From: a virus
Reading direction: 5' to 3' (one strand)
DNA length: 64,000 bases
IMG/VR virus record: IMGVR_UViG_3300044638_001843
Location: 1 to 64,000 of that record
Part shown: positions 1 through 64,000 of the stretch, in pieces
Position numbering within the stretch: the stretch's first letter is position 1
How the letters are laid out: the number at the start of each line of letters is the position of its first letter
Notes under the pieces: model-generated
What the model was told of the DNA's origin: nothing
Seen by the model: only the letters and a program-made list of their open reading frames with translations
Database searches by the model: none
Position numbers and translations under genes: made by a program

Positions 1-94
1 GCTGACCCCGATATAAAGCAAATAAGGGGTAGTAATAACCTAGGCTAAGGACCTAACCCACCCTGGCTTAGAGCAAGCTAATAGGGTTACTAGG

Positions 95-3463: not shown

Positions 3464-3468
3464 TTCAG

Positions 3469-3501: not shown

Positions 3502-3504
3502 TTT

Positions 3505-3711
3505 ATGCCTATTATATCCGTACTTGACATTACAATTAGAGAAATAGATTACATTAATGGTGCTCCTCAGTTACCATTCAAAGAAATAAGAAAGGCCATA
3601 CCGATTGAAAGTTTACCTAAGAATTTACAATCTACACAACTCCCTGAGTCCGTTCTCGCAATGGTATTGGAGTCTCTTTACAAGCTGGAATCATTGCAGT
3701 CTACAGTTTGA
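3505..3711 (+). CDS. Hypothetical protein, 68 aa
   Basis: ATG 3505 lies directly after the terminator, so ribosome loading would need a promoter inside or beyond the hairpin, or read-through. The product (MPIISVLDITIREIDYING...) has a short beta start and a helical Leu/Glu-rich end. It precedes the 3722 gene and thyX. No family recognised. Confidence 0.5.
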   Translation: MPIISVLDITIREIDYINGAPQLPFKEIRKAIPIESLPKNLQSTQLPESVLAMVLESLYKLESLQSTV

Positions 3712-3721
3712 TAACAATGTA

Positions 3722-4069
3722 ATGCATTGCTTTGATGATTTTGAAATTCCCCGTTGGGTTTCTCTTAAGGGTGAATCAATGTTATTCAAAGATAAAGATG
3801 CTGCTACTAGCTTTTATATCGGTGAAACAGATGAGAAGCTATGCAATATTGTTATGTATGTAAATACGCTGCCACCAATGACTCCGTTTAAAAAGTTTCT
3901 AAGATGGCCTAGCTCTCTTACTAGGTTTATCTTTCCACCTAAGCGGGATGATTGTGTTCACAAGTGTTCTCTTGTACTAAATAAATTATTTAATATGCCT
4001 GTTATTACTACCAATGCAGAAGATATGATGCGGAAGTATAACATAAGGATGGAAGATGCAATCAGATAA
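3722..4069 (+). CDS. Hypothetical protein, about 115 aa
   Basis: The open frame extends upstream to 3605, but the upstream part overlaps the preceding gene and looks like shadow sequence, so I place the start at ATG 3722. No good ribosome site is seen, so the start is uncertain. The protein (MHCFDDFEIPRWVSLKGE...) contains FPPKRDDCVHKCSLVLNKLF, a cysteine at the head of a helix after a basic stretch. That loosely recalls small cysteine-hydrolase-like phage proteins, but the other catalytic residues cannot be assigned. It overlaps thyX by 14 bp. Confidence 0.55.
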   Translation: MHCFDDFEIPRWVSLKGESMLFKDKDAATSFYIGETDEKLCNIVMYVNTLPPMTPFKKFLRWPSSLTRFIFPPKRDDCVHKCSLVLNKLFNMPVITTNAEDMMRKYNIRMEDAIR

Positions 4070-46900: not shown

Positions 46901-48281
46901 GGAAGATAACATAAGAGGTAAGGGAATGGATCTTACCAAGCTACCACAATCAACTTCATGGGGAGGGTCTGGTACGCAAGATTTTATTACTAATGCTGGT
47001 TTGTTAGCTCCATTTAATGTTAGAACACTTATAAACGATGAAGCATCTATTAGTATACGAGATGATGGCAATGCTGTCTTGGGATATTGGGAACAATCTG
47101 GATGGAAAATTCCAGGTAATTCAGAAACAGAAAAACAAACATCTATTGTAGTAGCATTAGCTAATGCTTCTGGTATGCCTGTTAATGTTGATAAAGATGG
47201 TATTGTATCGTTGTATATGACAACCTATGATGATAGTAGAAATCTAAGTTTAGTAGAATTAACAAATGATAACTTTGGATTCATTGTAGAAACCTTAACA
47301 GGATCTCTTTCTACTAATAGGGACTTTACTAATTTCTTAGAAGCTCACCGTACCGTTGAACCAAATAGCACAAACCTAGTAGAAGTTCTATCAACTTGGC
47401 AAGACTATGATTCTTTCTTTGGTAGTAGTAGAGGAAATATCGTAATTCCAAACTATAGAAGTTATGAGGTTGGTTCTTGGAAGACTTTAAACTGGGGAAC
47501 AGACCCAGCAATGGTAGCGGAATCAGGTAATATAATTATTCCAGCAGAGCACGAAAAATATAGAATGCCTATGCTAGCTGTTCCAGATTCAATTCAAGCT
47601 GTTCCTGGTTCTTTTACTGAATCCAATACTATTGAAGAAAATAGAGAGGGTAATCTTCTTTTTGATGATGAGCGTTATATTCCAGGCATGCGCGGCAAGG
47701 AATCTACCTATGCTACTATCTGGCTATTTGGAGAACGCTCTAAAAATAGATTAAGTGAAGCCGCCTTTAAAGAAGATTTAACAAAAATTATTACTTCAGC
47801 TTTAAGTGGCCGGGAACTTAATCCGTCAACTATAGCTAAAATTAATGATTCCGCTAGTAGACTTGCTGGTGGTTCAGATGCAAGATCAAAAACAAATGCT
47901 ATGGTTTTAATGGCTGCTAATGATATTTTAGGTAGTGGGTTTAAAATACTACCAGATGATTTATTTGCTGTAGGTAATGGCATATTTAGTGATACTGCAT
48001 CAAACAGAGATACATCAACATTTAAAATTAACTTTGGTAAAGATGCTAAAGTTACACAACTAGTTTCAACAGAAGATGGAACACCATTTCCAGTTAATTA
48101 TAGGATTCCCTTTGATCCTAGTATGTTTCCTGTAGAACTAACTGGTTCTTTTGCTAGCCAAATTCAATTATCAAATATGCAAAGACAACTTGATTTCATT
48201 AGAGAAAACTTTATCCACGACCGCGGCCATCCTAATTATGGCCATCCTTGGATTCACTTTAAGGGAGACAGTAATAAATGA
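43923..48281 (+). CDS. Internal virion / ejection protein, 1452 aa (T7 gp15-like by position)
   Basis: The protein is a long, mostly helical, Gln/Asn/Ala/Leu-rich polypeptide with no signal peptide and almost no cysteine. It begins with a Gly-rich segment (ILKIGGNRGLNLNVTPGSVA), then INNNVSWQDW-like helices. Position after the gp14-like gene and before the two other giant proteins points to the ejectosome. It is about twice the length of T7 gp15 (747 aa). No enzymatic motif was found. GGAGG precedes the ATG; it overlaps the next gene by 4 bp. Confidence 0.65.
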   Translation: MAIDPNILKIGGNRGLNLNVTPGSVAEPGRTIGGRFQVGAPQTAVGPSGDEALYANLSIIAGGVVDSAQNIAQLAEFNNNVSWQDWYADSWEGDKSKRRAILDNTELNSEEKRNQLIKLLDEAPSNGANKARKAQLYGDWLDQDPDSTGIFQSAYTTFQQETLTLSPEDRLRQFETTFGYELSYGNEQAVSARLGYERDVLNFNNENAITQGKLALERNSGYVNDVLDAMLSEELGDNIPMQELRRQAEAEGSLPQFEQTLGQAQLIRENRASADVIQSVLLSNLNINSSSEIFSPFDQTMSNLITAKSTQLSREYGLKMAKATAVQEETNKAYTRMSFSQTPLNVDPSKNGAEIAALLATINQLDGKDRNEAMAALISSLVTTSEANRFNYNQAITFSTDLFIKVWETATPSQRRILSQMGFVPTPPAISPEDLKKIYDQPSFASTNRDKIELAVTGVLSSNDRFAKGVSEQLTAATAPFETLQIEGPQSAYGLAVALDATVKQLGMSGNSPAFLRLEALRSSNTSNRLRGENGLQIWTLGLGLPPEDYELFIAANTDGVARTPEMNAVITKYGKLPSLTEEMKAISDSVSKGDKLTQSLNKKINETIDSVVKAVAKTGGPTVTGVFDKNHFKDLTTAANNFPERSGVVDRLVHDNPALGSIAQKTVEAASKFTYGKTIGNNQYSFEIPQAANGIPLPKQLTERLKEIADLRQKELDALLKESPIAYKAKLNDIRAELNTLAVQEMVLMEASNNPSIVGNKPEELASQQAALRQVVETTLRTQDEYAALFRSSNISPKEPFLSPIMGDNDVATIQLVDGAGNTNTENYSRLVYRVTNGTSDSNSQFLPTLQKAFTALGSNNGNAQLTMETSKQEMMYLFAVADGIAAKATIESKGDPYVMLQRVQTRINQLLVGSDLSSYRPTLRKLVELKLADNPEFGKTNGVRFIPSDPNDTFARLTGTAKKTLTDKMTAEQSRLDRVSKYLFKSLMLHTEDNIRGKGMDLTKLPQSTSWGGSGTQDFITNAGLLAPFNVRTLINDEASISIRDDGNAVLGYWEQSGWKIPGNSETEKQTSIVVALANASGMPVNVDKDGIVSLYMTTYDDSRNLSLVELTNDNFGFIVETLTGSLSTNRDFTNFLEAHRTVEPNSTNLVEVLSTWQDYDSFFGSSRGNIVIPNYRSYEVGSWKTLNWGTDPAMVAESGNIIIPAEHEKYRMPMLAVPDSIQAVPGSFTESNTIEENREGNLLFDDERYIPGMRGKESTYATIWLFGERSKNRLSEAAFKEDLTKIITSALSGRELNPSTIAKINDSASRLAGGSDARSKTNAMVLMAANDILGSGFKILPDDLFAVGNGIFSDTASNRDTSTFKINFGKDAKVTQLVSTEDGTPFPVNYRIPFDPSMFPVELTGSFASQIQLSNMQRQLDFIRENFIHDRGHPNYGHPWIHFKGDSNK

Positions 48282-51034
48282 ACCAGTACAACTTATTAGG
48301 TGAGTCCTTTAATCCTAAAGATTTTTCTTCTTTACTTATACCAGTAGTTAAGGATGAAGACAATGAATTAGTAAGAGCAGATATGAAAGCATACAACGAA
48401 TACTCTAATGATATTCAGTTGTACGATTATATTAACTCTTATATAAAAGAGTCTTACATTAAACCAGTAGATGAAAGTGCAGAAGAAGAAAAGAAGAAGC
48501 AAGCAGCTAAAGAGTGGCAATCTTCTTTAGGTAGAGATCCTAGTTCTACAGATCAACTTACAGATGAAGCTACAGTTAGAAGCAGAGAATTAAATAACAT
48601 AGGTCCACTTGTATTTAGAGACAACGGTACTGGTAAATTATTATTCGGTCAGCCAGCAAGAGATGAACTACAGTGGACGGTATCACAGGGTAGGGATAAT
48701 GTAGAAGGTATCTTTGGGTTTGAGAACACAGCCCTTGGTCAGGTTGCTTTGCGAATGATGGGTTCTGAGTTTAATACAGATTCTTTCTATGAAGAATTAA
48801 ACAAGCTTAACATGTCATTAGATCCAGAAAAAAGAAAGCAAACATTAGAAAGATTAAAGGGAATGGCAGGGTGGGCTGAGTATGGTGCTCTTGCTAACTG
48901 GGTTCAGTTTCTTCCTGGCGTAGATCCAGAGGATCGGTTTAATGCATCGGAAGAAGTATTAAATGTATTTGGGTATAAAGGATTTAATGCATTTGGAAGA
49001 AACTATTATTCGTCTGATCCATTTGATTTAGCCGCTAACCTTCCATCTAATCCTAACTGGAACTATAACAAAGCATGGGAAGCTTTTACTACAACAAACC
49101 CAGGCGCAGCAGCCTGGTTTGAAACAAATGGATTTAATGTTCAATCTAGATTAAAGAATACTAGACATGAATTAGATTTCTTTTATGAACTAAATGAATT
49201 TATTGATACAAATGCTTTCCAACGTATTATGTCATCAGATGTAGAACAAATGAGTTCTACTGGATATGCTTGGAAGACAACAGTATTACCCCTAATTAGA
49301 GATTCGTTTGCTTCAGTAGATGCTCCTCTAGATATTGCAGTAACTGTTGGCCTTGGTACTTTAACTGCTGGTACTAGTACGGCTGCTTTGGTTGGAGCAA
49401 GAACAGCATTAATGGCTGGTAAAATTGGATCCACAAGTTTAAAAACATTGAATGCAGTCCAGCGATTTAGGAAGGGTGCTGAAATTGTTACTTCTTGGTT
49501 ACCTCATAATATAGCGGGTAGGTTTGCTAAAAACGCTACATCAATAACTGGTAAAACTGCTAGCTATGTCGGAACCAGTGTTGGTAATGGTATTATTACT
49601 GGTGCTTGGTATAATATAAATAACCAGTTAAATAATATGGATAATGATGATACATATCGCTGGAGTACAGAAAACCTAGCTCACGATATTGCATTAGAAA
49701 TAGTTGGTGAACTTGGATTGGGTGGTGCAGCCACTATGGCACAGGCTGGTGTCTTTAAGCTAGGTGGTTTAATAGACAAAGGCACTGGATCTTATATTGG
49801 TAAAGCAGCCAAGAAGCAATTTGAAAAGCTTCCAACAGAACTAAAAGAAGTACTAAAAGCTTCTGCATCTTTAGGTAGAGTTGGTAACATGGGCGATATG
49901 AATAACTATGAATTACAATTATATACTGATTCAGTTGTTATGATGTATGCTATGCGTACTGCTGGTGTTATTGACCCAAAAAATCCAACCCTAAACTTTA
50001 GAACAGCAGCTGCTTGGGGTGTAGCTACTAGTAGACTAAGTGCAGAAAAAGCCAACACCACCTTGAAAACAGCCAAAGAAGAGTTTGCTAGAAAGAAAAA
50101 AGAACTGCAAGATAGTGGGTCTACTGAAGTATTAACAGATGAAGATCAAGATATGTATGTATCTAATATGTTATTATCTGCTATGCTTAGTGATTCTAGA
50201 GTTAATCCAGATACACAGGAAAGAATCTTTAATCTCTGGAACAGCATTGAACGTGAGCAATTTAATCGTGAGTTTAGAAGTACTCCAGAAATTGAAACCA
50301 AACAAAAAGAAATATCAGACTTAGAAGATCAAAAACTAGATCTTGTAGAACAACTAGCCAAAAGATCAAAAAAGATTTCTCAAGTAGAAAAAGATATTCT
50401 TCAAGTAGAAATAGATGATAGGACTGCTAAGATTGCTATTAAAACTTCAGAACTAGAAACATTACAGAGTTCAGTTAAGACAGTAGAAAACATGTCAGCA
50501 GAAGAGTTAGCTACAAAGCTTTACGAATGGCGTAAAGGTAAAAGAGAAAGAGTTAAAACTTTATTGGGTTTAATCAATCCATCAGCAACTGTAGCTGCAA
50601 CAACTGAACTACTATCTCCCGAAGAAATGCAACAAGTTGCTACTGACTTAGGTGCTTCAGCTCCAGAAGTAATACAAGCAATGGCAGAATCTGAAGTAGA
50701 GTCCGGCCTTCCCCGTGATCTTGGTGTGGCCACAGCTGGGGCTTTAAGCGTTGCTGCGGCTTCTGTTAGCCAACCAGCAGCACCAGCAATGGAAGCCGCT
50801 CCCGTGGCTGAAGTAGTTCCAGAAGTTGAAGCTGCCCCCGTAACAGAAGCAGCTCCAATAACAGAAGAAGCTGCTGAAATTGTAACAGCTGAACCTGCTG
50901 TAGCACCTTCAACCGAGGTTATAGAAGCTACCCCAGAAGCCGTACTTACTGAGATTATTGGTAGACTAAAGAGTATTGATAGAGTATATCTATTCAATAA
51001 TATATTACAAAAATACAAAGACGTATGTAAATAA
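48278..51034 (+). CDS. Internal virion / ejection protein with membrane-like segments, 918 aa
   Basis: The N-terminal third is acidic and helical. Residues about 345-400 (DIAVTVGLGTLTAGTSTAAL and GARTALMAGKIG) and 425-450 are Gly/Ala-rich hydrophobic segments that could enter a membrane. A coiled coil follows at about 665-745. Residues about 800-900 are an Ala/Pro/Glu/Val repeat region (AAPVAEVVPEVEAAPVTEAA). The protein probably lies in the capsid core and helps DNA cross the envelope. No close T7 counterpart; coupling to both giant neighbours supports this. Confidence 0.6.
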   Translation: MNQYNLLGESFNPKDFSSLLIPVVKDEDNELVRADMKAYNEYSNDIQLYDYINSYIKESYIKPVDESAEEEKKKQAAKEWQSSLGRDPSSTDQLTDEATVRSRELNNIGPLVFRDNGTGKLLFGQPARDELQWTVSQGRDNVEGIFGFENTALGQVALRMMGSEFNTDSFYEELNKLNMSLDPEKRKQTLERLKGMAGWAEYGALANWVQFLPGVDPEDRFNASEEVLNVFGYKGFNAFGRNYYSSDPFDLAANLPSNPNWNYNKAWEAFTTTNPGAAAWFETNGFNVQSRLKNTRHELDFFYELNEFIDTNAFQRIMSSDVEQMSSTGYAWKTTVLPLIRDSFASVDAPLDIAVTVGLGTLTAGTSTAALVGARTALMAGKIGSTSLKTLNAVQRFRKGAEIVTSWLPHNIAGRFAKNATSITGKTASYVGTSVGNGIITGAWYNINNQLNNMDNDDTYRWSTENLAHDIALEIVGELGLGGAATMAQAGVFKLGGLIDKGTGSYIGKAAKKQFEKLPTELKEVLKASASLGRVGNMGDMNNYELQLYTDSVVMMYAMRTAGVIDPKNPTLNFRTAAAWGVATSRLSAEKANTTLKTAKEEFARKKKELQDSGSTEVLTDEDQDMYVSNMLLSAMLSDSRVNPDTQERIFNLWNSIEREQFNREFRSTPEIETKQKEISDLEDQKLDLVEQLAKRSKKISQVEKDILQVEIDDRTAKIAIKTSELETLQSSVKTVENMSAEELATKLYEWRKGKRERVKTLLGLINPSATVAATTELLSPEEMQQVATDLGASAPEVIQAMAESEVESGLPRDLGVATAGALSVAAASVSQPAAPAMEAAPVAEVVPEVEAAPVTEAAPITEEAAEIVTAEPAVAPSTEVIEATPEAVLTEIIGRLKSIDRVYLFNNILQKYKDVCK

Positions 51035-51045: not shown

Positions 51046-54000
51046 ATGGGCAAATGCAGCGAAGAGGTTTTAAACAAGATACGAGAAGAACTAAAGTCAA
51101 GTGGTGCAGAACCTGAAACAATTAATACTGTTGTTTCTTTATTTGAAAAGTCTGTTGAAACCGATGCATCTGCCGACTTGGTATCAAAAACCCTCACTAA
51201 TTCTTTATTTACAACTTCAGATATTGAGAAGCTTAATAAACTAATTTCAAAGTTTAGAAGAGCTAAGGGTGATATAACTAAAGTTACTAATGACGATCTG
51301 TCTGAATTTACTTTCTTATGGTCTAAGTGGCAAGCTTACATGGAAGGTAAAGTACTTATTGCCGAGGGATTCAAAACAAAGGAAACTCTAGAACTAAAGA
51401 AAAAACTAAGAAAGCTAGAAAGTAAGTTCCTTAGTGAAGGTAAAATTAAAGAAGCAAGAACACTTAATAGATTAATTAGAAAAATAGAAGCAACCGAAAA
51501 GCAGAATAGAAATGCTGGTAGATTTATTAGGAACATAGAGTTTGAAGGTAGACTAGAAAAAACTAAAGCTTTACTTAATGCTGTTAATGCGTCTTATGAA
51601 TTTGAGGCTTCAAACAATGAGACAATTAAAAAACTAAACAATACTAGATTTGCTTTAGTTGGTGAGCTTCAAAGAGAAACAGACCCAGAAAAGAAAAAAG
51701 AAATTCAAAAAAAGATTGATGAGAATGTCAAAGAAACTACCACAAAAACAAATGAAATCTTATTAAGTAAGGCATTTAGAAAGCAACAGAAAGCAGACTC
51801 AACTGGTCAAATATCTCTATATGAAGCAGTTAAAGAACTTAGTTCTGAGATTGATAAGAACTCATCTACATACCGCCTTGCTCTAAATGAACTGATTGAT
51901 TCTCGTAATACCCTAGAACATGATAAGCAATTGTTTGAATTAGCCAAACAGGGTATTCAGGTGCTTAATACAAGTAAGGCTTTGTTGGATGCTATTAGAA
52001 AAGAAAAGGGCGGCAAAGTTACTGTAGCAGAACTAAAAGCAGTAATCGGAGATTTGGGTGTTTCCATTGATCAATTAATTATTGATACCCACAATAAAGT
52101 TAATCCAAAAGAAAAAGCAAAGTCTTTAAAGGGAAGTACTGAACTAGATAACAATACACTATCTTCTATCTTTAATACATTAGCTAATCTAGCAATAGAT
52201 CAGGCTTTTTCAAATGGCATTGCTTTAGGTTTTGAGTTTTCACCAGAAGATCAAATGTTAGCAGATAATCTAAAAGCAGCTAGTAATAACATGGATATTG
52301 AAAACGAAGACCAGGTAAATAACGATACTGTTATGCCAAAGGCTAGAACAGCCAGCAAAGCTAAGGAAGAAACCCTTAGTACTAGAGAACAAAAAATTAA
52401 AGAGTTTAAAGAAGGCACTGACTTTAAGAAGCTTTATGTAATGTTAAAGCAAGCCTTAGAGCGTGTAGAAACACTGAGAAAACTACCACAGTTCTCAGAG
52501 CATATATCAAGAGATATGGTTTTAGCAGCCCTAGGACCACAGTTACACCTACTAAATCCAGACATTTATTTTAGTAGTGCTGTTGTAACTGCAACATCTG
52601 TAGCACGACTAACAGCTCCGGCTCTATCTAGCTTGCCTGTACCGCCAGCATTAGAAAAAGCTTTTGCTAATTTAGGTATGGATCCAAGAGCAATTAAGGG
52701 TTTACCTGAAGTAGCAAACCCAGATGAATACGCAAGAAACTGGGATAGAGTTATTTCATTTGATATTGAAACAAAGGGTGATGAGATCTTTATGATTTCT
52801 ATTAGACACTCAGCAACAGAAGAAAGACTTGATCCTTCTATTGAACAGCTTGTTTCAAATCCAGCCAAAGGTTCTATTGGTAACTTTACTGCTTATTCAA
52901 AAGAAGATCTACTGCGATTCTTACGATCTTTAGAATTAATGCAAAATATGGGATGGAAGGTTGCTGGATTTAATAATGTTGGATTTGATTTAGCTTCTAT
53001 AGCTAAATCTATTGGTACAGAAGAAGCATCAAATCTAGCCGCTCGGGTTGCTTTAAGATCATATGATATGTACGCTTGGATTAAGATGCAATATGGAGCT
53101 ACTGTTAATTTAGACAACCTTGCAACAGCAACACTTGGTCGAGGAAAGATTAAAGGCGTAACTGGCACAAGTGTAGTAGATCTTTTACTTGCAGCAAAAA
53201 CAGAAGAAGAAACTTCAAAGGCACTAGAGTATTCTAGAAACGACTCTGATTTAGTATTTGAGATTATTGAAAACCTAAGATCAAACCCATCACGAAACCT
53301 TACTGTTAATGTAAACAATGTAGATAAGAGTACTGTAAATTTAAGTTTAAGTAATCCACTTCAAACATGGCAACTAGCTATTTTTCACAGTAATACAAAT
53401 AGTAACTTTAATGGATTCTTTTTAGAATACAATGCAGCAGGAGTACAACCAGCAATAAATAACTTTGTTGGTGAATCTAGTAATGCTGAAAGAACATCTA
53501 GACTGCTATTTAATACAGAAGCAGTTAGAGATCAGTTGCTATTGCATATGTCTTTATCTTTAAGAGCAGATCCAGATACAGCTGTAGTTGGAGAAACTTT
53601 AATTAAAGAAGCCGAAAGACTTACTAAAAAAGAACAAGAAGTTCTTGTTACTCAGATGAAGTTAATGAGAACACATAGGCAAGCTGGTATTGAAGCAAAG
53701 AAAGCTTTACTTGGTTCTGATGGAGAACCAAAGTTTATTCTTTCAATCATTGAAGGTGAACCAAAATATATTGAAGCAACTACCAGTACAACAGCTGAGT
53801 CTCAGTATGAAGCAGCAGTAATTGAAGCATTTAATCAGTTTTACTTAGATATGGCAGGGGATAGAGTACCAGCCGATCAGATAGTTTCTCGGATGAATGA
53901 AAAGATTGTTGAGTATGGATTTAGAGAAAAGACTGGATCAGAAACCCAAGCAGACTACATTAAAGCTTTTATTAACGAAGTAATCTTGCCATCAGTTAAA

Positions 54001-57000
54001 GCAAAAGCTATAACAGACTTTGGTAATGGTAATACTGATTATGCTCCTGCTTGGAATGTTGGATATGCTATAGCTCAGATTGCAATGGGTAGACGAGATG
54101 GTATTATGGATTCTAGATTTATTGAAGAGCAAGCATTTGTTACTCCACTATCTACAATGAATGACCTGGAAAACAATGCAAAGAATCTATCTGAGTCTAT
54201 AAAAGTTAGACAACCACATAGAAAAAATGTATCTATGTTTGCCCCAATATCCCTTAAGCAATATGAAGAAGTATACAATGACTGGGCTTTACGGCAAAGA
54301 ATAAACCATATTCTAAACGGTGATAGATACAAAGGATTGTCAGAAGAAGAACTACGAAAGAAACTAGCCGACATTCGTGGGGCTGAGTATATGCGTAGAG
54401 TTTCTGTATTAGCTAAGTCAACAACAATAATTCCCGATATTACCCCCACGGTAAATAACAGACAGTTATTTAATGAGCTTCCAACAATTGAAGATACACT
54501 AGATAGAACTCTAGAAACCTTACTAGACTTACCAGCAATTGGTGTTGCTGTAGTACATGACTCTGTATTTTTAAGAACAAAAGTAGTTGTAGATAATGAT
54601 GGTAAGAGTTTAAAATTCTCCAGACTAGAAGCATCACCTGGTGCTTGGTCTGCACGATCAATTATCAACGGTCAGCTTGTAGCCCAGTTAGGTTGGTATC
54701 AAACATATGGTATTACTGATGGTGCTATTAAAACATCGCTTGAAGAAACAGCTAAGGGTATTCAAGCTGGTAAACTGCAATTAAAGAATATAGATTATTT
54801 TGACTTTGACTTTAATGGTGTTCACCACATGTTAATGTTAATGTTGGCTTATAATATTCCAAACGACGTAGGTACTAGAGGTGTAGCAAACCTTATAAAA
54901 AATCTAAATCTTTCTGAATGGTGGTCAACTGTAGATGCCAACAAGGATGACTTTTATACTCAAGTATCTCTTCAAGTCCAGAAGAATATTGCAGAGCAGT
55001 ATGTTAAACTATCTGAAAGAAAACAAACAGCACCGCTAACTAAAGATGAACAAGCTAAGTTTGATTCATTAGAAAAGTGGAATGCTATTTTAAACAGCAT
55101 GGACGAAACAGGATCCAAGAGAACTTTTAGAGATTTCTTTAAGGCTGCTGTATTACCTCGTTTGTATCAGGGCGGTATTCCTAGTATTTCACAAGCTCTA
55201 TTTGAAAAAACTCAAGATCCAGAGTTTAAAGAAACATTCCCATCTATTGTTATTAACAATGCTGATATTGGTTTTTTGTTAAAGGATGCTGAGTTTAGCG
55301 GCGTTATTGGATTAATTAAGTTAATAGACGAAACAATAAATATTTCTGTCGATGGTAGAACTAAACTAAAACAACAACTAGATGAGTGGAACCAAAAACT
55401 TTTCTACAAAGATGGTGTACAAAGACATCATGCAGTTCTTAAGGAAATGGGAAAGTCAACCGATTTTGGTCGCGGTATCATTGATGATACAACACTAACT
55501 AATCTTATCAATCTTCGTATTGATGCGGCTGCAAGAATGTTGGTAAAACCTAGTGATATTATGCAGTTTGGATCTTTAGAGTCAGCTATTAATAATAAGA
55601 AACAACGTCTAGCTAAACTGTGGGCTGACCGAATTAACGCGGGTCGAGAGTATGTAAGAACTAAGGGTGGTACTCTTACAACCCGTGGAGAATATATTAA
55701 GCTAGCTGAGATTATGGGTAGAGATCCCCAAGCTTGGAAAGACTTACCGTTACTGGCTGCTATAAACACTGCTAATAGAACACCACTTAAGATTAGAGAA
55801 GAAGCTATTAGAGAAGCCACAGAAGAGTTTGGTGTTAATGTAAATGACTATCTTGGTAATTCTGGTAACTATCTTTTCTTCCAGAGTTTAGCCAGAGACT
55901 TGGCTGGTGGTCGTATGTACACAACACCATCCGGTATTTCATACCAGGGTCCTTCTTATTCTCAAGTCGCTACTCCAGCTCCTTTTGATCCAGCCGATGT
56001 AGACACTACAGCTTTATGGGAAATTGACGAGTTTTCTTTTGCTAGACTAGCAAGAGAAAATCCAGAAGAAGCCCGTAGATACATTACTCAATTAGTCCTA
56101 CAGCAATATGAATTACGGTTGGCTACTGAGTATATGGCTAATGACTATAACGATAAAACTCTAGAGACACCCGAAAGATTCCTAGAAGATTGGTCGCGCA
56201 TTAGTAAAAAGGAAAGAGAATTCTATGCCAGACGGCGTAGTATAGAAACCCTAAGAACAGCTCAGGCAGAGGCTCAGATTGAATCCGTTGTTACACCCGG
56301 TGGTGCAAGACCTAACGCCAAGAACTGGATTAAAGAAGCTCGTAAGCGCGGCTTGCTATTAGAGCAGGGATTAAGATATCTTGCTTCTCCATCCCGAGTT
56401 ATTGGGGATACCAGTAAAGCATTTGAAGAGTCTAATCAAAAAATGGGTATATTTGCATTTAGACCCAAGACTGCCGATATTGATATTACAGATCTACCTA
56501 TTTACGCTTTAGCAGAATTAGCTATTGAACGCCGTATTGATAAAGAAAATGAAAACTGGGTAAGAGCAAGTAAGAAGAATAAAGCACCAAGTTCTGTAAC
56601 AGATATTATTCCAGAACAGGCTATAGGGTACACTCATACAGTAAACCCAGAATCTTTACCATATGTTCCAAGAGAACTTATGTCACTGGGTTTACTTACT
56701 AATCTAACAGATGTATCAACTAAACTTGCCGTTGAGCAAGCTAGAATTCAAAGCAGACTTTATAGGTTTGCAAAGCAAAATGGATTAATGCATCTCTTAC
56801 CGCGCGGTAGAGAAAACTGGGCTGCTGTTCATTTCATTAGAATGGCTCATGTCCGAGGTGGTTACCCACTACTAAGAAAACTTGGTAAGGTTTATAATGC
56901 AGATGAAAATACTTTAGTATCTGAATATAACTTAGGTGTATCAAAGTTCTTAACATCCATGTTTGATATTATTGAGTATCAACACAATACAATGGATAAG

Positions 57001-60000
57001 GATGTAACACAGTTAGACTTTAATTACTTTGGTGGGTTTAATCCAAAGATGTTTAAGGGTATGCGTGGAAGTCCAACATACTACAATCTTCTTACAATGT
57101 TGTCTGATGCATCAGAACAACTAGGAAGTCTTAAGTATGGTCTTACTGTTTCATCAAGAACTAGAGTAGCAGGACCCGACTCGCAACCTATTGACGAAAA
57201 CACAAGAACACTACCGGTAACCGTACAAGCTATGGATGCTGTTAACCTTGTGTTTATTCTTTACAACTTAACAAAAGTAAAACAAGTAGCTACTGAATTA
57301 GTTAAAGCTAGAAATATTGCTGGTGTTGAATTTGATCCTGCTGGACAAGTAATACCTGAATCAATCCCAGCAAACGCAGCAGTTACATTGCTACCAGAAA
57401 TTCTAAGTAGACCAGAGTTTACAGAAGCTGACATAAGATCCGTAGGGCTATATGTACTTTATAATGAGTATCAAAATACTGCTGAGCTTGTTGTTGATAA
57501 ACCCACGGCTAATACAATGGATATTCAAACAGCCATTGGTCCAGTCCCACAAGTAAATGTTAATGATAGTAAAACAAAGTATGCGTTCACACCAGAAATG
57601 TTAAACTCATTGTTACTTGCTTTAAGAAACTCTGTTGTACTAAACCAGGCTGAACTTGCTTATGCTACTAATAAATCAATTGGTGAAAAGAAGTCAAACC
57701 TAGAGCGTGGCAATCTACAAAGAACATTAGAATATTACAATGGGGCTAGAGAACTAAAAGCCGATGAAGCTACAGTTTTCTCGGCTCTCCATGCTGGACT
57801 ATCTCCACTGTATACTTTAGATGGTGGTATGTATGATGCCCGATATAATGTTCAGTATGAAATTTTAGATTCTATTAGATACTTAGCCAAAGAAAACTTT
57901 AATTTAATTTCTACTAAGTATTTAGATAGTCGATCTACACCGTTTACTGTAAAAGCATATGAACTAGCTTTGCTTATGCCACTTCAAAGAGCTATAGCAA
58001 TTGCTGAAAATAACAATCTTAAGTCTGCTTTAAATACTATTAACAGTACTTTAAATAATAATCCACAAGAGATTAGACAGCTATTACCAATTATTTCTTT
58101 GGCTATATCAAAGCCAACAATGGAACTAAATGCTATTAAAGCTCTTGTTGATTATACATTCAGTAGAGAAGGTATTTCAAAAGCCAAAGTTGATGCCCTA
58201 ACTAGTGATATTCAGATTCTTTTAAATGTAGTTAGAAGCATTACAGATCCACAGTCTAATGAGTTCTATACACCAGTTAGAGCTTTCTTACAGCGGCTAG
58301 ATGTACCAACTGATAAACTAAATGAACTAGATGCTACTGTTCAGTTTATTGCTTATCAGGAAGAAAGAGGTAAGAAACTAAACGCAGAACAACAGAATAA
58401 AGTTAGACTAGCCGTTTCTCACTCTATTAAAAACTTACAAGAAGATTCTCAATTAAGTCTTTCATTCTATGGAACTGGACCAAAAGAATCAGCTAATAAG
58501 TTTGGGAATGAAACAATATTCTTGTCTACATTTGTAAATTCAGGTGAACAACTAAATAATCAAATTAAGTCTTTAGGATTGGATGCACTAACAGAACAGA
58601 TGTATAGAGCTATGATTGGATTTATTTTACATAAGCATCCAGAACTTGAAGGTCACTTGACTATTAGCATAGATGATGTTGAAGGAAATAGATTAGCTAA
58701 AATCCGTAAGGTTAATGATGTATTTAATATTGTCTTTGCTAAGTCTCCAAACACAATTAAAGCAGCAGTTGCTGGTAAAACAACTGAACAAGCTATTGAA
58801 GTAATAGCACATGAGCTATCCCATATTGCTTTAAACTATTCTAAGATTAGAGATAGAATTGGTTATGAAGAAGCAATTGAAAGCTTAATGACAGACACCG
58901 GGCAAGAAGCAATAGAAAAAATGGTTACTAATGCTTTTGCTGGTGGGGTGCTAACTAGAAATGAAATCACTAAACTAGTTTCTTACTATCAACAAAACTT
59001 GGAAGAAGCTTTGGTTATGTGGGGAAGCCAAATGCTTATTACAAGAGCAATGGGTAAAGATCGTGTTGAGCTAAAGGCTATAGAGGAAGAAAACAATATA
59101 GCTAGTAAGGTTAATTCTTGGTGGAAGAGAACCTTTAAATCTATTGAATACTTTGTAAATAATCTAGTTACATTCTTAGATGAAATGACTGGTAGTAGAT
59201 TTGTTGGTGTATCAGACAAAGTAAACAGAGTCTTTAATGGATTCTTTGATGCTACTTCAGATCTTAGAATGGAAGACAAAGCCGTATACGATGATGTACT
59301 TGAAGAAAGTTTTATTATCTCAAATGCGGATGTATATTATAATCCTGGTTCAACATCTACTGAACGTACTGCTTATCTTGAAGAGCAAGAAAGAAATCAG
59401 AATCAGTACAGAAGATTAACCCAAGAGCTTAGTACACTGGATCCAAACTCAGCAGAATATGCAAGAGTTAAAAGAGAACTAGACTCTATTAGAGATAAGT
59501 GGCAAAATAATGTAGACCACTTAGGTATCTCTGATGAACTATACTATGATACATTAACTAGACTACGCAACAGAAATGATGTTGTAGGTCGTGAATTTGA
59601 TTATGCAGAAACAACAGAAGAAGAGATTGTACTAGCAGATCACATTATTAGAAAGCTGTCAGAGGTTCGTGGCAAGCGTGTCGATAGCCCAGGTACAGCT
59701 GCGTATCTAGCTAGACAAATGATGAATCTATTCTCAGGCACTGTGTCTATGCAAGACGATGGACATGCAAGAAATAGATTAATCCAAACACTACAGAAGA
59801 TTTCTACTTCTGTTTATCTTGTAACTGGTAATCAATCTGGCCAAACCTATAACTCTGCTTTTGGTATTATTGTATCACTAGCGCACTTAATTGATGCCGA
59901 AGCACAAACAGTAGATTCATACTTTGAAGGTAACGGCGGATTAGATGGTATTAAACAAAACCAATACCAAGTAAATCTATTGGTTAATCAAGTATCTTCT

Positions 60001-63000
60001 GTTTATAACCAAATTGTTTCAGAGTTTTCTTCAGCAATCCCAGTACCAGGCGCAACTAATAGATCTGGAGATATTATCCTAGAGTCATTTAGTTACCTAG
60101 CCAGTGGTAAGATTGATCCTTCATTTAATGAAAAGGAACAAGCTGCTATCCGTAGACTTGGAGATACATATCGTAAGTCTTCAGAACTATTACATGGAAT
60201 AATTACAGATGCTAATCTAAAAGATAGATCAAGACCATTCCATGATAGCTACCTTGCATTCAAGTTAGATATTGATCAGTTTAGAGAAGAAAAGAATAAA
60301 GCTGGTTATCAAACAAGAAGAACGCAGTTTATTCAATCTGTATCTTCTTTAATCAAAGCAAAACAACTTTCACAGTTACAAGATCTTGATAGAGTACATC
60401 CGGTTACATTTATGTTGACTTCCGGGTTACCAACACTTAAGACATCTAACTCATCAGACATGTCTTCAGAACAAGAGTTTATTAGCTTTATTGAAAGAAA
60501 CGCAAGTGGATCTACAAATCCAAATTCAGTAGAGGCTATTATATTTAACTCTATTCTTTCTTATGCTGCTCAGGTTAAAGAAGGATCTGTTGATTTAGCA
60601 ACTAAAAAGGATCTCATTAGATCAGGTGCAACTGTTGGAAACTCGGTTGCATTGAAAGATTTAAAGAAAGGCTACAAGGCTTTACTAGAAGCAAGCACTA
60701 GTAGAACAGCTACTGTAACTGGATTGCTTACAGCACATACATCAGGTATTACCCCAGAACAAGTAAAGATAATCCAGAATGCAATAAAGAATACCATTAC
60801 TTCTGATATTGGCAATCCACCCAATATGAAAGCAAAGCTTCAAGCTATGCGTTCTGAGAGATTCCCAATTAAGATCAAAGAAGAAAGAAATATCTTTAGT
60901 GCATCTACAAATACAATTCCAGAACTACTGGCAATAGACTTCTTAAATACTATTGGTTCTTCTGCTGCTATTACTTATAAGGATGACATCAACCTAACAA
61001 TAGATGATATCTTTGGTGATAACTTTACTGAAGTACTTGGCGTAGAGGAAATGAGATCTATTCGTAGTGGCTTCTCCAGAGACATAAGATCTATTATTAA
61101 ATCAATTGGATCTGGTTTAGGTCAGCAAGCTGTATCAAGTTCATTGATTTACAAGATGACTGGGGTACAAGGGTATGATGTTCTTAAACTAATTAGGACT
61201 CTAAAGGCATATGTCGATGGAGCCAATAGACCAACTGGATCTCATATATCACAGGGTCAGTTTGAAAGAACCGAACAAGGTGTAAGAGCTAAACCCCTAT
61301 CACAAGCAGAAGTCAAGTTACTTAGTGATGCCTTAACAGTATTGGAGCACAAGTATCAGTATATGTGGAACATGCGTTCTGCTGTATCTGGTGATGCCAT
61401 TGGTAAGAATGCAATTAAGTTTACAACACAAGCTGCCCACCTAATTTGGGGTGGTAACCAGATTGCCGCTGGTATTCTTGTAGACTCTTCAGCAGCAGCC
61501 GTTGGTGCTATGATGCTAGGCGGTGCTGGTGGTGTACTTGGTTTCTATGGCAGATACATTGGAGATGTCCTTAGATTAAGCTTTGGTGCATTTAGTGATG
61601 GATGGAAACAAACCCAGGTTCGTGGTGACTTTGCCGACTTTGCAGAAATACTTTGGGATACTAATAGTAACTTTGTTGAGTCATGGGAAAAGTTATATGG
61701 TGAAGTAGACTTTACTAGAAAAACCGGAAGACTGGCTAGTAGATTCTTAAGCTTTAACCAAGCACTAAATATGTCAACATCTATCTCTGCAAGAACAGCT
61801 TTGGCTAAAACTGCATTAGTACAACTCAATAGACAACTAAATACTAACAACCTAGAAGAAGTAAGACGTATGCTTATTGATGGTGAATTGGAATCTGGTA
61901 ACTATAGAGGATATGTAACTCTGATGAAAAAGCTAAAGAACAACGGCTTTAGAAAACTATCTTCACCTGAAACAATTCTACGAATGAAAGCTGCTGGTAT
62001 GTTTGAGGTTGGGGTTATCGAAAGCCTTAAGTTCTTAAAGCAATCAGGACCAATTAGTATTTCTCAGTATATGGACAAAATCCTAGATCTTGATAAAGAT
62101 TTTAGCGTTAATGTAGATGGTGTTACCGTAAATAAACAAATGCTAATACAAGCTGTAGGAGCTATTGAAAAGTTCCAAGACTTGGCAGTTAAACAATCAT
62201 TAATATCTTCTTCAGCTTTTGATGGTATAACAGATGATTCTCCACTAAGCAAGTTCTTAAGCTTGTATAGATCATATTCAATTCTATTTGCTGGTCAGAT
62301 GTTACTACGCAACAGTGCCAGAATGTCTACATCAAAGATGGCTGGACTCATGTTGGTATATACCATTACCGATATTATGTATCAGACTATGCTTGCAGCA
62401 GCCAGCGGGTTCCTTGCTGGGGATGAGATTGAAAGATTACTAAGGGGTGAACCATCTGAAAAGGTAATTAAACTTATTGCTAAAGCAGCAGTAAGAAACC
62501 CCATGTTTACTTTACAGGGCAACTTCTTGTTGGATACTACCTTGTTCTTGGCAGATACAGTTGCTGGTAACAAGGGATTAGAACCAGAGATTGCACCGCT
62601 AGGTGTTACTGCTATGGTACGATTACTAAAGAACCTAGCAACCAATACCAATACCTTTATCAATGCACAGTCAGATGAAGAAAGAATTAAGTCAGCTTAC
62701 AATGGTGGATTATATTTACTACCAATACTAAATCAAGCTTGGTTTAAAACTTTAATTAATCAGGGCTTAGCTACAGAAGCAAAGAAACAAACAATGGGTT
62801 CCTTTGATTCTGGAAGACGCAATAGTGAAGGTAGACCCATGAATACAGCATTTGCTACAGCTTATGCTGAATACGAAAACATGCAACTACCTACGCCAAA
62901 CAATATAGCACAGGCTATACTTAAGTCATTGTATCAAACTGAAATGAATAACAAACTTCAGCAATACATGCATCAGTTTAAAAAGAAACAAATGCCAAAC

Positions 63001-63153
63001 CTAGGTCTAACAGCTCCAGAAACTCCAGTACCAGAGAAGCCAGTAGAAACAACTTCTACCAGCGAAGTCATGGTTGGACCTAAGCCAAGCACTGGTTCAT
63101 CTCTACAAAAGGAAGCAACAACACCAATTAAAGCTCCAGACTCACTGAAGTAA
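51046..63153 (+). CDS. Giant multidomain internal virion protein, 4035 aa, with exonuclease-, RNA polymerase- and zincin-like regions
   Basis: At 12.1 kb this is 19% of the window and lies where T7 has gp16 (1318 aa). Residues 1-560 are coiled-coil-rich. Residues 566-745 carry DEDD exonuclease motifs. Residues 1145-1645 carry single-subunit RNA polymerase motifs in an unusual order: HD at 1171-1172, D1253, R1362/K1366/Y1374, TTPSG at 1626-1630. HELSH lies at 2589-2593. Gly/Ala-rich hydrophobic segments lie near 3465-3505 and 3765-3795, and the tail is Pro/Thr/Ser-rich. The frame is unbroken, so the gene is under selection. N4 carries a comparable 3500-aa virion RNA polymerase. Start at ATG 51046 after GGAG. 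Entry with the DNA into the host is inferred from gene position. Confidence 0.8.
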   Translation: MGKCSEEVLNKIREELKSSGAEPETINTVVSLFEKSVETDASADLVSKTLTNSLFTTSDIEKLNKLISKFRRAKGDITKVTNDDLSEFTFLWSKWQAYMEGKVLIAEGFKTKETLELKKKLRKLESKFLSEGKIKEARTLNRLIRKIEATEKQNRNAGRFIRNIEFEGRLEKTKALLNAVNASYEFEASNNETIKKLNNTRFALVGELQRETDPEKKKEIQKKIDENVKETTTKTNEILLSKAFRKQQKADSTGQISLYEAVKELSSEIDKNSSTYRLALNELIDSRNTLEHDKQLFELAKQGIQVLNTSKALLDAIRKEKGGKVTVAELKAVIGDLGVSIDQLIIDTHNKVNPKEKAKSLKGSTELDNNTLSSIFNTLANLAIDQAFSNGIALGFEFSPEDQMLADNLKAASNNMDIENEDQVNNDTVMPKARTASKAKEETLSTREQKIKEFKEGTDFKKLYVMLKQALERVETLRKLPQFSEHISRDMVLAALGPQLHLLNPDIYFSSAVVTATSVARLTAPALSSLPVPPALEKAFANLGMDPRAIKGLPEVANPDEYARNWDRVISFDIETKGDEIFMISIRHSATEERLDPSIEQLVSNPAKGSIGNFTAYSKEDLLRFLRSLELMQNMGWKVAGFNNVGFDLASIAKSIGTEEASNLAARVALRSYDMYAWIKMQYGATVNLDNLATATLGRGKIKGVTGTSVVDLLLAAKTEEETSKALEYSRNDSDLVFEIIENLRSNPSRNLTVNVNNVDKSTVNLSLSNPLQTWQLAIFHSNTNSNFNGFFLEYNAAGVQPAINNFVGESSNAERTSRLLFNTEAVRDQLLLHMSLSLRADPDTAVVGETLIKEAERLTKKEQEVLVTQMKLMRTHRQAGIEAKKALLGSDGEPKFILSIIEGEPKYIEATTSTTAESQYEAAVIEAFNQFYLDMAGDRVPADQIVSRMNEKIVEYGFREKTGSETQADYIKAFINEVILPSVKAKAITDFGNGNTDYAPAWNVGYAIAQIAMGRRDGIMDSRFIEEQAFVTPLSTMNDLENNAKNLSESIKVRQPHRKNVSMFAPISLKQYEEVYNDWALRQRINHILNGDRYKGLSEEELRKKLADIRGAEYMRRVSVLAKSTTIIPDITPTVNNRQLFNELPTIEDTLDRTLETLLDLPAIGVAVVHDSVFLRTKVVVDNDGKSLKFSRLEASPGAWSARSIINGQLVAQLGWYQTYGITDGAIKTSLEETAKGIQAGKLQLKNIDYFDFDFNGVHHMLMLMLAYNIPNDVGTRGVANLIKNLNLSEWWSTVDANKDDFYTQVSLQVQKNIAEQYVKLSERKQTAPLTKDEQAKFDSLEKWNAILNSMDETGSKRTFRDFFKAAVLPRLYQGGIPSISQALFEKTQDPEFKETFPSIVINNADIGFLLKDAEFSGVIGLIKLIDETINISVDGRTKLKQQLDEWNQKLFYKDGVQRHHAVLKEMGKSTDFGRGIIDDTTLTNLINLRIDAAARMLVKPSDIMQFGSLESAINNKKQRLAKLWADRINAGREYVRTKGGTLTTRGEYIKLAEIMGRDPQAWKDLPLLAAINTANRTPLKIREEAIREATEEFGVNVNDYLGNSGNYLFFQSLARDLAGGRMYTTPSGISYQGPSYSQVATPAPFDPADVDTTALWEIDEFSFARLARENPEEARRYITQLVLQQYELRLATEYMANDYNDKTLETPERFLEDWSRISKKEREFYARRRSIETLRTAQAEAQIESVVTPGGARPNAKNWIKEARKRGLLLEQGLRYLASPSRVIGDTSKAFEESNQKMGIFAFRPKTADIDITDLPIYALAELAIERRIDKENENWVRASKKNKAPSSVTDIIPEQAIGYTHTVNPESLPYVPRELMSLGLLTNLTDVSTKLAVEQARIQSRLYRFAKQNGLMHLLPRGRENWAAVHFIRMAHVRGGYPLLRKLGKVYNADENTLVSEYNLGVSKFLTSMFDIIEYQHNTMDKDVTQLDFNYFGGFNPKMFKGMRGSPTYYNLLTMLSDASEQLGSLKYGLTVSSRTRVAGPDSQPIDENTRTLPVTVQAMDAVNLVFILYNLTKVKQVATELVKARNIAGVEFDPAGQVIPESIPANAAVTLLPEILSRPEFTEADIRSVGLYVLYNEYQNTAELVVDKPTANTMDIQTAIGPVPQVNVNDSKTKYAFTPEMLNSLLLALRNSVVLNQAELAYATNKSIGEKKSNLERGNLQRTLEYYNGARELKADEATVFSALHAGLSPLYTLDGGMYDARYNVQYEILDSIRYLAKENFNLISTKYLDSRSTPFTVKAYELALLMPLQRAIAIAENNNLKSALNTINSTLNNNPQEIRQLLPIISLAISKPTMELNAIKALVDYTFSREGISKAKVDALTSDIQILLNVVRSITDPQSNEFYTPVRAFLQRLDVPTDKLNELDATVQFIAYQEERGKKLNAEQQNKVRLAVSHSIKNLQEDSQLSLSFYGTGPKESANKFGNETIFLSTFVNSGEQLNNQIKSLGLDALTEQMYRAMIGFILHKHPELEGHLTISIDDVEGNRLAKIRKVNDVFNIVFAKSPNTIKAAVAGKTTEQAIEVIAHELSHIALNYSKIRDRIGYEEAIESLMTDTGQEAIEKMVTNAFAGGVLTRNEITKLVSYYQQNLEEALVMWGSQMLITRAMGKDRVELKAIEEENNIASKVNSWWKRTFKSIEYFVNNLVTFLDEMTGSRFVGVSDKVNRVFNGFFDATSDLRMEDKAVYDDVLEESFIISNADVYYNPGSTSTERTAYLEEQERNQNQYRRLTQELSTLDPNSAEYARVKRELDSIRDKWQNNVDHLGISDELYYDTLTRLRNRNDVVGREFDYAETTEEEIVLADHIIRKLSEVRGKRVDSPGTAAYLARQMMNLFSGTVSMQDDGHARNRLIQTLQKISTSVYLVTGNQSGQTYNSAFGIIVSLAHLIDAEAQTVDSYFEGNGGLDGIKQNQYQVNLLVNQVSSVYNQIVSEFSSAIPVPGATNRSGDIILESFSYLASGKIDPSFNEKEQAAIRRLGDTYRKSSELLHGIITDANLKDRSRPFHDSYLAFKLDIDQFREEKNKAGYQTRRTQFIQSVSSLIKAKQLSQLQDLDRVHPVTFMLTSGLPTLKTSNSSDMSSEQEFISFIERNASGSTNPNSVEAIIFNSILSYAAQVKEGSVDLATKKDLIRSGATVGNSVALKDLKKGYKALLEASTSRTATVTGLLTAHTSGITPEQVKIIQNAIKNTITSDIGNPPNMKAKLQAMRSERFPIKIKEERNIFSASTNTIPELLAIDFLNTIGSSAAITYKDDINLTIDDIFGDNFTEVLGVEEMRSIRSGFSRDIRSIIKSIGSGLGQQAVSSSLIYKMTGVQGYDVLKLIRTLKAYVDGANRPTGSHISQGQFERTEQGVRAKPLSQAEVKLLSDALTVLEHKYQYMWNMRSAVSGDAIGKNAIKFTTQAAHLIWGGNQIAAGILVDSSAAAVGAMMLGGAGGVLGFYGRYIGDVLRLSFGAFSDGWKQTQVRGDFADFAEILWDTNSNFVESWEKLYGEVDFTRKTGRLASRFLSFNQALNMSTSISARTALAKTALVQLNRQLNTNNLEEVRRMLIDGELESGNYRGYVTLMKKLKNNGFRKLSSPETILRMKAAGMFEVGVIESLKFLKQSGPISISQYMDKILDLDKDFSVNVDGVTVNKQMLIQAVGAIEKFQDLAVKQSLISSSAFDGITDDSPLSKFLSLYRSYSILFAGQMLLRNSARMSTSKMAGLMLVYTITDIMYQTMLAAASGFLAGDEIERLLRGEPSEKVIKLIAKAAVRNPMFTLQGNFLLDTTLFLADTVAGNKGLEPEIAPLGVTAMVRLLKNLATNTNTFINAQSDEERIKSAYNGGLYLLPILNQAWFKTLINQGLATEAKKQTMGSFDSGRRNSEGRPMNTAFATAYAEYENMQLPTPNNIAQAILKSLYQTEMNNKLQQYMHQFKKKQMPNLGLTAPETPVPEKPVETTSTSEVMVGPKPSTGSSLQKEATTPIKAPDSLK
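52741..53280 (+). other. DEDD-type 3'-5' exonuclease-like domain within the giant protein
   Basis: Residues 566-745 contain Exo I as ISFDIETKGDEIFMISI (D573, E575), Exo II as AGFNNVGFDLASI (D648 after N-x3-F) and Exo III as EYSRNDSDLV (Y729-x3-D733). This is the motif set of proofreading exonucleases of family A and B polymerases and relates to FDIEADG in the phage's own DNA polymerase. All four acidic residues and the Exo III tyrosine are intact, so the domain could be active. Confidence 0.75.
54478..55980 (+). other. Single-subunit RNA polymerase-like palm/fingers domain within the giant protein
   Basis: Residues 1145-1645. D1253 in DFDFNGVHHMLMLML lines up with motif A (D-x4-G-[IL]-Q-H). 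A helix DDFYTQVSLQVQKNI follows, as DIYGIVAKKVNEI does in T7. R1362-x3-K1366-x7-Y1374 (RDFFKAAVLPRLYQGG) fits motif B exactly in spacing. TTPSG at 1626 matches TTPSG in the 4954 polymerase. VAVVHDSVF (D1172), preceded by a helix, looks like motif C but lies 81 residues before motif A. A conventional T/DxxGR motif was not found. Motif A to B distance is 113 residues, close to the 111 that I recall for N4. Confidence 0.6.
58723..59070 (+). other. Zincin-like (HExxH) segment within the giant protein
   Basis: Residues 2560-2675. VIAHELSHIALNYSKI contains H2589-E2590-x2-H2593. About 60 residues on, NLEEALVMWGS offers E2653 or E2654 as a third zinc ligand. The preceding helix is amphipathic, as in gluzincin metalloproteases. 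A peptidase could process virion or host proteins, but substrate and activity are unknown. Confidence 0.55.
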
Positions 63154-63496: not shown

Positions 63497-63533
63497 GAAA
63501 TTCCCCCAGGTTAATCCCTGGGGGATTTCTTTA
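63497..63533 (+). terminator. Intrinsic terminator after the 47-aa gene
   Basis: CCCCCAGG pairs with CCTGGGGG around loop TTAATC, extended by AGAAAT/ATTTCT with one bulged T. The following T run is short (TTTA). Loop and flanks (AGG-TTAATC-CCT) repeat those of the terminator at 508. Confidence 0.8.
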
Positions 63534-63601
63534 TGGGTAGCATATGCTGCCTCTGTTAGGCCCCTACAGTCTTAGGGGTTGTCTTGCAAAGGAATAAGAA
63601 G

Positions 63602-63848: not shown

Positions 63849-63880
63849 CATCCCCCGGAGAAATCCGGGGGGTGTTTTTT
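63849..63880 (+). terminator. Intrinsic terminator after the 68-aa gene
   Basis: CATCCCCCGGA pairs with TCCGGGGGGTG (one G-U pair) around a GAAA tetraloop and is followed by TTTTTT. Very strong predicted hairpin. Confidence 0.92.
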
Positions 63881-63881
63881 A

Positions 63882-63933
63882 TGGGTTGAATGTAACCCAA
63901 GCCCTACTGTTGGGCAAGCTCATGGCTAGAGCT
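63882..63933 (+). promoter_or_regulatory. Three tandem short hairpins upstream of a new gene
   Basis: TGGGTT-GAATGT-AACCCA (63882-63899), GCCC-TACTGTT-GGGC (63901-63915) and AGCTC-ATGGCTA-GAGCT (63917-63933) stand in a row directly after the terminator. TATATAAG follows at 63934. They precede ATG 63980 by about 46 bases. A promoter or protein/polymerase recognition site is possible; N4-type virion polymerases recognise hairpins, but those have shorter loops. Confidence 0.35.
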
Positions 63934-63979: not shown

Positions 63980-64000
63980 ATGAACATTCCATTCTTGGGT
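63980..64000 (+). CDS. Start of a gene cut by the window edge
   Basis: ATG 63980 follows GAGAGGA at 9 bases and encodes MNIPFLG before the window ends. The frame is open to the edge. With seven codons nothing can be said of its function. The ribosome site and the preceding regulatory region support a real start. Confidence 0.4.

Follow-up and report, generated by a model that had tools for sequence, protein, structure and literature searches.

The last of three large genes in this phage genome encodes a 4035-residue protein that, judged from its sequence, is probably a divergent, ejected virion RNA polymerase (vRNAP) of the N4 kind, located outside the Schitoviridae and carrying an additional exonuclease domain (probability about 0.7). 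Phage N4 injects its virion RNA polymerase together with its DNA. An N4-type vRNAP is favoured by a specific motif signature, by a segment ending in motif B that aligns in register with 13 vRNAPs, and by the HExxH domain that follows. Functional kinship with the N4 vRNAP is better supported than formal membership of its family, because two defining motifs were not located and the Pfam models of the family were unmatched. The original prediction, made on the window (the whole stretch of 64,000 nucleotides analysed here), was of an N4-like polymerase domain inside a giant ejection protein. The conserved motifs A and B and further N4-like features bear it out in part; on the other side, the structure predictions were unusable, no significant match was found for motif C or TxxGR, the TTPSG element is not conserved, and packaging in the virion is presumed. 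The upstream exonuclease domain, the HExxH domain and a diverged polymerase gene downstream of the giant gene are additions to that prediction.

Genome context

The virus record that contains the window comprises 69,066 bases, and the features discussed here are collected in Table 1. The three large genes lie 3' of the terminase gene (41476-43140) and of an open reading frame of 259 residues. The ends of the record repeat imperfectly (window 1-126 and 482-794 against record 68206-68331 and 68751-69066, with 99% and 90.5% identity), and the record may therefore hold almost the entire genome, with ends that are redundant or result from circular assembly.

Table 1. Features of the giant gene and its surroundings (window coordinates unless stated otherwise).
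Feature	Position	Strand	Remarks
T7-type single-subunit RNA polymerase, 812 aa	4954..7392	+	phrog_414 E 3.1e-158; PF00940 E 2.6e-83
1452-aa protein, probable co-ejected protein	43923..48281	+	cysteine-free
918-aa protein, probable co-ejected protein	48278..51034	+	sole cysteine is residue 917
Giant protein, candidate virion RNA polymerase	51046..63153	+	4035 aa; single cysteine is residue 4
DEDDy 3'-5' exonuclease-like domain, residues 568-745	52747..53280	+	D573, E575, D648, Y729 and D733 invariant in 6/6
HD(S/A), residues 1171-1173	54556..54564	+	H and D invariant in 6/6; either equivalent of the DxxGR region or displaced motif C
Motif A, YFDFxxNGxHHM, residues 1251-1262	54796..54831	+	D1253 invariant; G1258 at +5; most conserved 40-aa window
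D-x-Y segment, residues 1301-1314	54946..54987	+	hhalign pairing with N-D-L-Y of N4
Motif B, R1362-x3-K1366-x7-Y1374	55129..55176	+	invariant in 7/7; in register with N4 motif B
TTPSG of the original prediction	55921..55935	+	not conserved; outside the claim
TVQxxD(A/S), residues 2059-2065	57220..57240	+	possible counterpart of the N4 segment preceding motif C; inside the second most conserved window
Collinear motif C candidate D2275, h-x-D-(A/S)-x-x-Y	57853..57885	+	D2275 and Y2279 invariant in two alignments; profile match not significant
Zincin-like domain, residues 2557-2704	58714..59157	+	HELSH 2589-2593; E2654 invariant; hhalign to N4 C1 domain E 1.5e-5
Diverged further single-subunit RNA polymerase, start of 625-aa ORF	63980..64000, to 65857 in record	+	hhalign to G001/G005 polymerases (586/620 aa), E 1.5e-6

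Besides the giant protein and the T7-type RNA polymerase, the phage encodes a separate DNA polymerase (phrog_17). A polymerase-like ORF of 625 residues begins 0.8 kb downstream of the giant gene; on its own it matched no model in Pfam or PHROG, and its motif B lysine appears by eye to be replaced by arginine. Three of seven related records, several of which are fragments, match phrog_414, and two of these (G001 and G005) match it twice. The second match is a polymerase of 586-620 residues (a scan of one of them matched PF00940 at E 9.4e-16), and the G001 and G005 relatives of the 625-residue ORF (L089 and L092) look intact. N4 likewise combines its vRNAP with a small polymerase, RNAPII, of 673 residues in two chains, as described in the relevant passages of PMC4496689.

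A unit of 40 nucleotides occurs five times after the giant gene (window 63504-63543 and 63852-63891; record 65876, 66264 and 66898). It contains a G+C-rich hairpin and a T-rich run, followed by TTATGGG in four of the five copies, and three matches to its core were found in a related record (G002, L094). These may be terminator-promoter units for one phage polymerase.

Homologues of the giant protein

Scans of viral contigs recovered six homologues of the giant protein, all from uncultured viruses. Identity to the protein of the window is 99% for L001, 43% for L002 and 23-24% for L008/L020, L017, L018 and L019, and the lowest pairwise identity within the family is 21.8%. The complete homologues span 3986-4055 residues from stop to stop. 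L001 was excluded from the six-member alignments on account of its near-identity, and further pieces of the same records (L003, L007, L010, L012-L016, L021-L023 and L084) are not counted as members. An eighth contig (L085) is likewise uncounted, with a 152-residue match to L018 that ends before motif A. A motif-pattern scan of genome contigs returned 29 stretches, of which a single one, a 135-residue ORF in L032, matched the family profile at E < 0.01 (E 0.0016); in the other 28, rejected as members, the motif sat in unrelated reading frames.

The six aligned giants share 297 invariant positions. When windows of 40 residues are ranked by invariant columns, motif A is the densest (14 of 40), followed by residues 2026-2065 (11) and motif B (9), and the window containing HD(S/A) is one of three with eight invariant positions. 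The second-ranked window (57121-57240; TR...TVQxxD) is situated between motif B and D2275.

Motifs A and B

The residues named in the original prediction, D1253 (codon at nucleotide 54802) in motif A and R1362, K1366 and Y1374 in motif B, were found exactly in the assigned places, as was TTPSG at residue 1626. The same prediction had called for an inspection of D1253, K1366 and Y1374 among homologues; these residues, together with R1362, are unchanged in all seven giants, and none of the homologues has lost them. The neighbouring D1255 varies, being D, N or K among the members. Over the full 4035 residues of the giant, the patterns R-x3-K-x7-Y and D-x4-G-x-[QH]-H are each found at a single place.

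Both patterns, as well as the glycine at position +5 of motif A, are shared with T7-type RNA polymerases, including the 812-residue enzyme of the phage itself, whose predicted motif B spacing (R582, K586, Y594) we verified. The giant differs from these enzymes in being about five times longer and in giving no secure profile match to their motif blocks. TTPSG is indeed present at residue 665 of the 812-residue polymerase, as had been predicted, but apart from the giant of the window it is kept only in L001 and is missing at this place from the five other aligned members. As the likeness is restricted to the window and L001, TTPSG was dropped as an indication of shared ancestry between the two proteins.

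A joint signature was defined as D-x3-N-G, 55-140 residues and R-x3-K-x7-Y-x-[SG], and was scanned against 478 open stretches of at least 200 residues (322,542 residues in total, with some loci duplicated). All 33 matches fall in loci of the giant family (20) or in vRNAP loci (13), and none elsewhere; the latter represent 7 of 13 vRNAPs, some of them present twice. The signature was derived from the giant and vRNAP families themselves, and its distribution thus shows specificity rather than an independent discovery. Motifs A and B jointly arose in one of 2000 shuffles of the giant sequence, and in combination with a downstream HExxH in none of 2000.

Similarity to N4-type virion RNA polymerases

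The D-x3-N-G form of motif A is common to the giant, to N4 (DGVTNG) and to 12 of 13 Schitoviridae vRNAPs, the vRNAP of RHEph16 having DGKTDG. The distance from the motif A aspartate to the motif B lysine is 113 residues in the giant and 86-113 in the six aligned members, compared with 111 in N4 and 91-138 in the 11 of 13 vRNAPs that are caught by the pattern. In a profile alignment of the 13 vRNAPs with the six giants, the N-D-L-Y of N4 is placed on D-F-Y of the giant, and the two families then continue in register through motif B. The corresponding hhalign comparison (N4 1530-1720 against giant 1225-1410) scores 26.8, a value reached by none of 60 and none of 250 column shuffles (maximum of the 250, 22.9) and by none of 39 other windows of 186 residues in the giant (best, 23.75).

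Other profile comparisons are less selective. When whole proteins are compared, the segment through motif B is the third hit, with low probability. In windows of 110 residues, two unrelated places in the giant score above the motif region with the N4 A-B block (rank 3 of 75), and one other place scores higher with the T7-like A block. Taken alone, the motif A blocks match the giant weakly (5 of 20 shuffles as good for N4, 1 of 20 for the T7-like block), and the T7-like block for motif B fails to match the corresponding site of the giant (14 of 20). On these profiles, the similarity of the segment ending in motif B to vRNAPs is real but modest.

The HExxH domain of the N4 vRNAP constitutes its C1 domain (PMC12633501, in the part describing the domains). 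An HExxH motif follows the polymerase region in all 13 vRNAPs and in all six aligned giants. The N4 C1 profile scores 43.7 against the HExxH block of the giant (shuffle maximum 24.1, none of 60 as good), and the top two of 36 giant windows for this profile contain the HExxH. The N4 C2 domain has no significant match in giant residues 2760-4035 (4 of 20 shuffles as good).

The giant thus resembles N4 gp50 and the Schitoviridae vRNAPs in being a single chain of more than 3000 residues that adjoins large structural genes, in the N4 form D-x3-N-G with R-x3-K-x7-Y about 111 residues further on, in an HExxH after the polymerase, and in a sequence from which cysteine is absent (vRNAPs) or almost absent (giant). 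The form of motif A, the spacing of motifs A and B, the HExxH domain and the near-absence of cysteine point to the N4 rather than the T7 type. By contrast with the N4 vRNAP, the giant is about 500 residues longer, contains an upstream DEDDy exonuclease domain and one N-terminal cysteine, lacks a significant match to motif C, TxxGR and C2, and is encoded in a genome with a T7-type RNA polymerase.

Candidates for motif C

A collinear candidate for motif C is the segment around D2275. The N4 motif C block does not match giant residues 2200-2330 significantly (13 of 60 shuffles as good). The distance from D2275 to HExxH is 314 residues, compared with the 280 that separate the motif C aspartate from HExxH in N4; the motif B lysine lies 909 residues ahead of D2275, compared with 281 in N4. 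If D2275 is motif C, about 600 extra residues follow motif B. The N4 C block scores best of 75 windows at TVQxxD(A/S), yet two of 20 shuffles equal this score. Two further candidates were rejected. Near residue 2138, three members have LDDFG or LDDYG and L018 has LDSYQ, but the aspartate is gone in the window (LYNEYQ) and in L002 (NYTAYN); D2264 was superseded by D2275, which is invariant in both alignments.

These results bear on the possibility that the giant, though distantly related to the N4 vRNAP, has lost RNA synthesis in its polymerase domain, which would instead act as a scaffold for ejection or DNA translocation, transcription being left to the 812-residue enzyme and the one of about 600 residues. 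We consider this unlikely. It would explain why motif C escapes significant identification and why the region near 2138, which resembles a motif C hairpin, has no aspartate in the window and L002, and it agrees with the presence of other single-subunit polymerases in the same genomes. However, the catalytic residues of motifs A and B are invariant at 22% identity, in windows that rank first and third in conservation, which is unexpected for a dead site, and both D2275 and D1172 are invariant and available as a second metal ligand.

Database searches and structure predictions

A tblastn search of 50,697 phage records returned no match for giant residues 501-1900 and 1901-4035, nor for the neighbouring protein of 1452 residues; membership of the Schitoviridae, tested in this way, finds no likeness to isolates for giant residues 501-4035 or for the neighbour. 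The same search with a segment of L018 gave three weak matches in Streptomyces phages (E 0.5). Pfam vRNAP and RNA_pol models did not match the giant up to E 1. With segments of three giants and a limit of E 10, the sole model of these kinds was vRNAP_dom_2, which matched the zincin segment of L019 at E 0.11. The models PF21894, PF21769, PF21867 and PF21624 all match N4, and none of them matches the giant; the distant vRNAP of PEV2 also falls just below the PF21894 cut-off (26.9 against 27). AlphaFold models of giant residues 965-2160, a stretch without D2275, and of an L019 stretch that includes the D2275 equivalent had mean pLDDT values of 40.1 and 39.5, respectively, and were unusable; both rested on six sequences. 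With the L019 model, Foldseek listed 210 matches at E values of at most 10, none of them at E 0.001 or better.

The absence of matching family models, the failure of most single-motif profile tests and the two unusable structure predictions would agree with a protein that contains no polymerase at all. It would then be a large ejection protein built of several domains, exonuclease and zincin among them, and its likeness to motifs A and B would have arisen by chance. A class of giant "polyvalent" phage proteins that carry zincin domains has been described (Iyer et al. 2017, PMC5512222, in the sections on these proteins). They include vRNAP modules joined to HExxH peptidase-like domains, as in the giant, and differ from it in their fusions to ART, lysozyme and PBECR domains. 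In spite of this precedent, a chance resemblance is quite improbable: the joint signature is confined to the giant family and the vRNAPs among the 478 ORFs, and the motif region is both in register with the vRNAPs and collinear with the HExxH domain.

The TxxGR region and the order of the motifs

The N4 TxxGR block does not match giant residues 1110-1220 (12 of 20 shuffles as good); it peaks at the motif A window of the giant (0 of 20 shuffles), which is the wrong place. By eye, HD(S/A) could correspond to DxxGR, with SPG at 1197-1199 (SAG in L018) in place of the NPQ/SPQ found after DxxGR in N4 and the phage's own enzyme.

HD(S/A) is also, by eye, the segment most similar to motif C of T7, but it is positioned 81 residues ahead of motif A. 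C-A-B permuted palms are known in some RNA-virus replicases; we know of no such permutation in single-subunit DNA-dependent RNA polymerases. A circularly permuted palm, in which HD(S/A) would be the true motif C of an exonuclease-bearing, injected RNA polymerase with motif order C-A-B, was initially preferred on the grounds that all members have HD(S/A) ahead of motif A. This arrangement is now regarded as very unlikely, since 13 vRNAPs share with the giants a collinear segment as well as motif B and HExxH, and better T7-like motif C windows exist elsewhere in the giant: the T7-like C block scores 14.8 at residues 1101-1210 (4 of 150 shuffles as good), and 17.3 and 15.7 in overlapping windows within 2806-2970.

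The exonuclease domain

The residues of the exonuclease motifs D-x-E, N-x4-D and Y-x3-D are invariant in the six aligned giants. PF13482 is detected in five of the six (matches listed up to E 10, best 1.9e-11), one member scoring 27.6 bits against a curated cut-off of 22, and PF10108 in two of the six (best 1.1e-5). Among solved chains, 11 of the 12 listed for this region are DNA polymerases of the family B kind, the best being 2jgu (E 4.6e-4). The domain has the same active-site residues as the PolB-type DEDDy exonucleases (PF13482, PF10108), and is found in a polymerase-like giant protein instead of a DNA polymerase.

An exonuclease upstream of a polymerase is the arrangement typical of DNA polymerases, and family A DNA polymerases have a glutamate that acts as a steric gate at position +5 after the motif A aspartate. 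The giant, N4 and the phage's own RNA polymerase have glycine instead, and the giant is therefore expected to be an RNA polymerase. That it is a DNA polymerase-like enzyme, with an exonuclease joined to a family A-type polymerase that would repair or fill in the genome on entry, is highly improbable in spite of the PolB-type domain upstream, given this glycine, the separate DNA polymerase of the phage and the roughly 500 residues that part the end of the exonuclease from motif A.

An exonuclease upstream of a vRNAP-like polymerase region appears to be a new feature with respect to known vRNAPs. Scans of three vRNAPs listed no exonuclease model, the word "exonuclease" is absent from the text of the N4 structure paper (PMC12633501), and its one occurrence in the text of PMC5512222 is in the reference list. 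In the openly licensed literature of PubMed Central, the excerpts of the matches listed include no N4-type vRNAP with an exonuclease domain and none in a phage of such make-up.

Cysteine depletion

The giant has one cysteine; five other proteins of the same phage contain cysteine at a rate that would give 70 in a chain of its length. A single cysteine, at residue 4 or 5, is present in all five giants with a complete N-terminus, and all 13 vRNAPs are cysteine-free. The near-absence of cysteine from the giant and the proteins of 1452 and 918 residues fits their passage through the tail and the envelope. Depletion is not confined to these three ejection candidates, as the portal-like protein of 534 residues likewise has just one cysteine. 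Large size and missing cysteine have already been used to argue for a vRNAP, in the passage on this protein in the StenR_269 paper.

The sole cysteines of the giant (codon 51055-51057) and of the 918-residue protein are placed at the extreme ends of the chains. The conservation of the N-terminal cysteine in the five giants hints at processing or modification.

Proposed role and significance

In the course of infection anticipated for an N4-like vRNAP, the giant would be packaged with the proteins of 1452 and 918 residues and would leave the particle with the DNA, passing through the tail and envelope. Its N4-type polymerase domain, with D1253 and R1362/K1366/Y1374 in the putative active site, is predicted to transcribe the first phage genes and to start transcription without the host enzyme. 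The early transcripts may then yield the 812-residue T7-type polymerase and perhaps also the downstream polymerase of about 600 residues. For the upstream DEDDy exonuclease, possible roles are the trimming or proofreading of transcripts, or an action on nucleic acid as it enters the cell.

Injected single-subunit RNA polymerases are said to be limited to N4-like phages or prophages, in the portion of PMC5512222 that deals with them. If the proposal for the giant is true, a vRNAP family exists outside N4-like phages and is co-resident with a T7-type polymerase, and host-independent first transcription would be a module that has moved between phage types. Cysteine depletion could offer an easy way of recognizing other ejected proteins. 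An injected polymerase would, moreover, be joined to a DEDDy exonuclease, and a role of the latter in RNA proofreading or as a nuclease at the time of entry would become testable.
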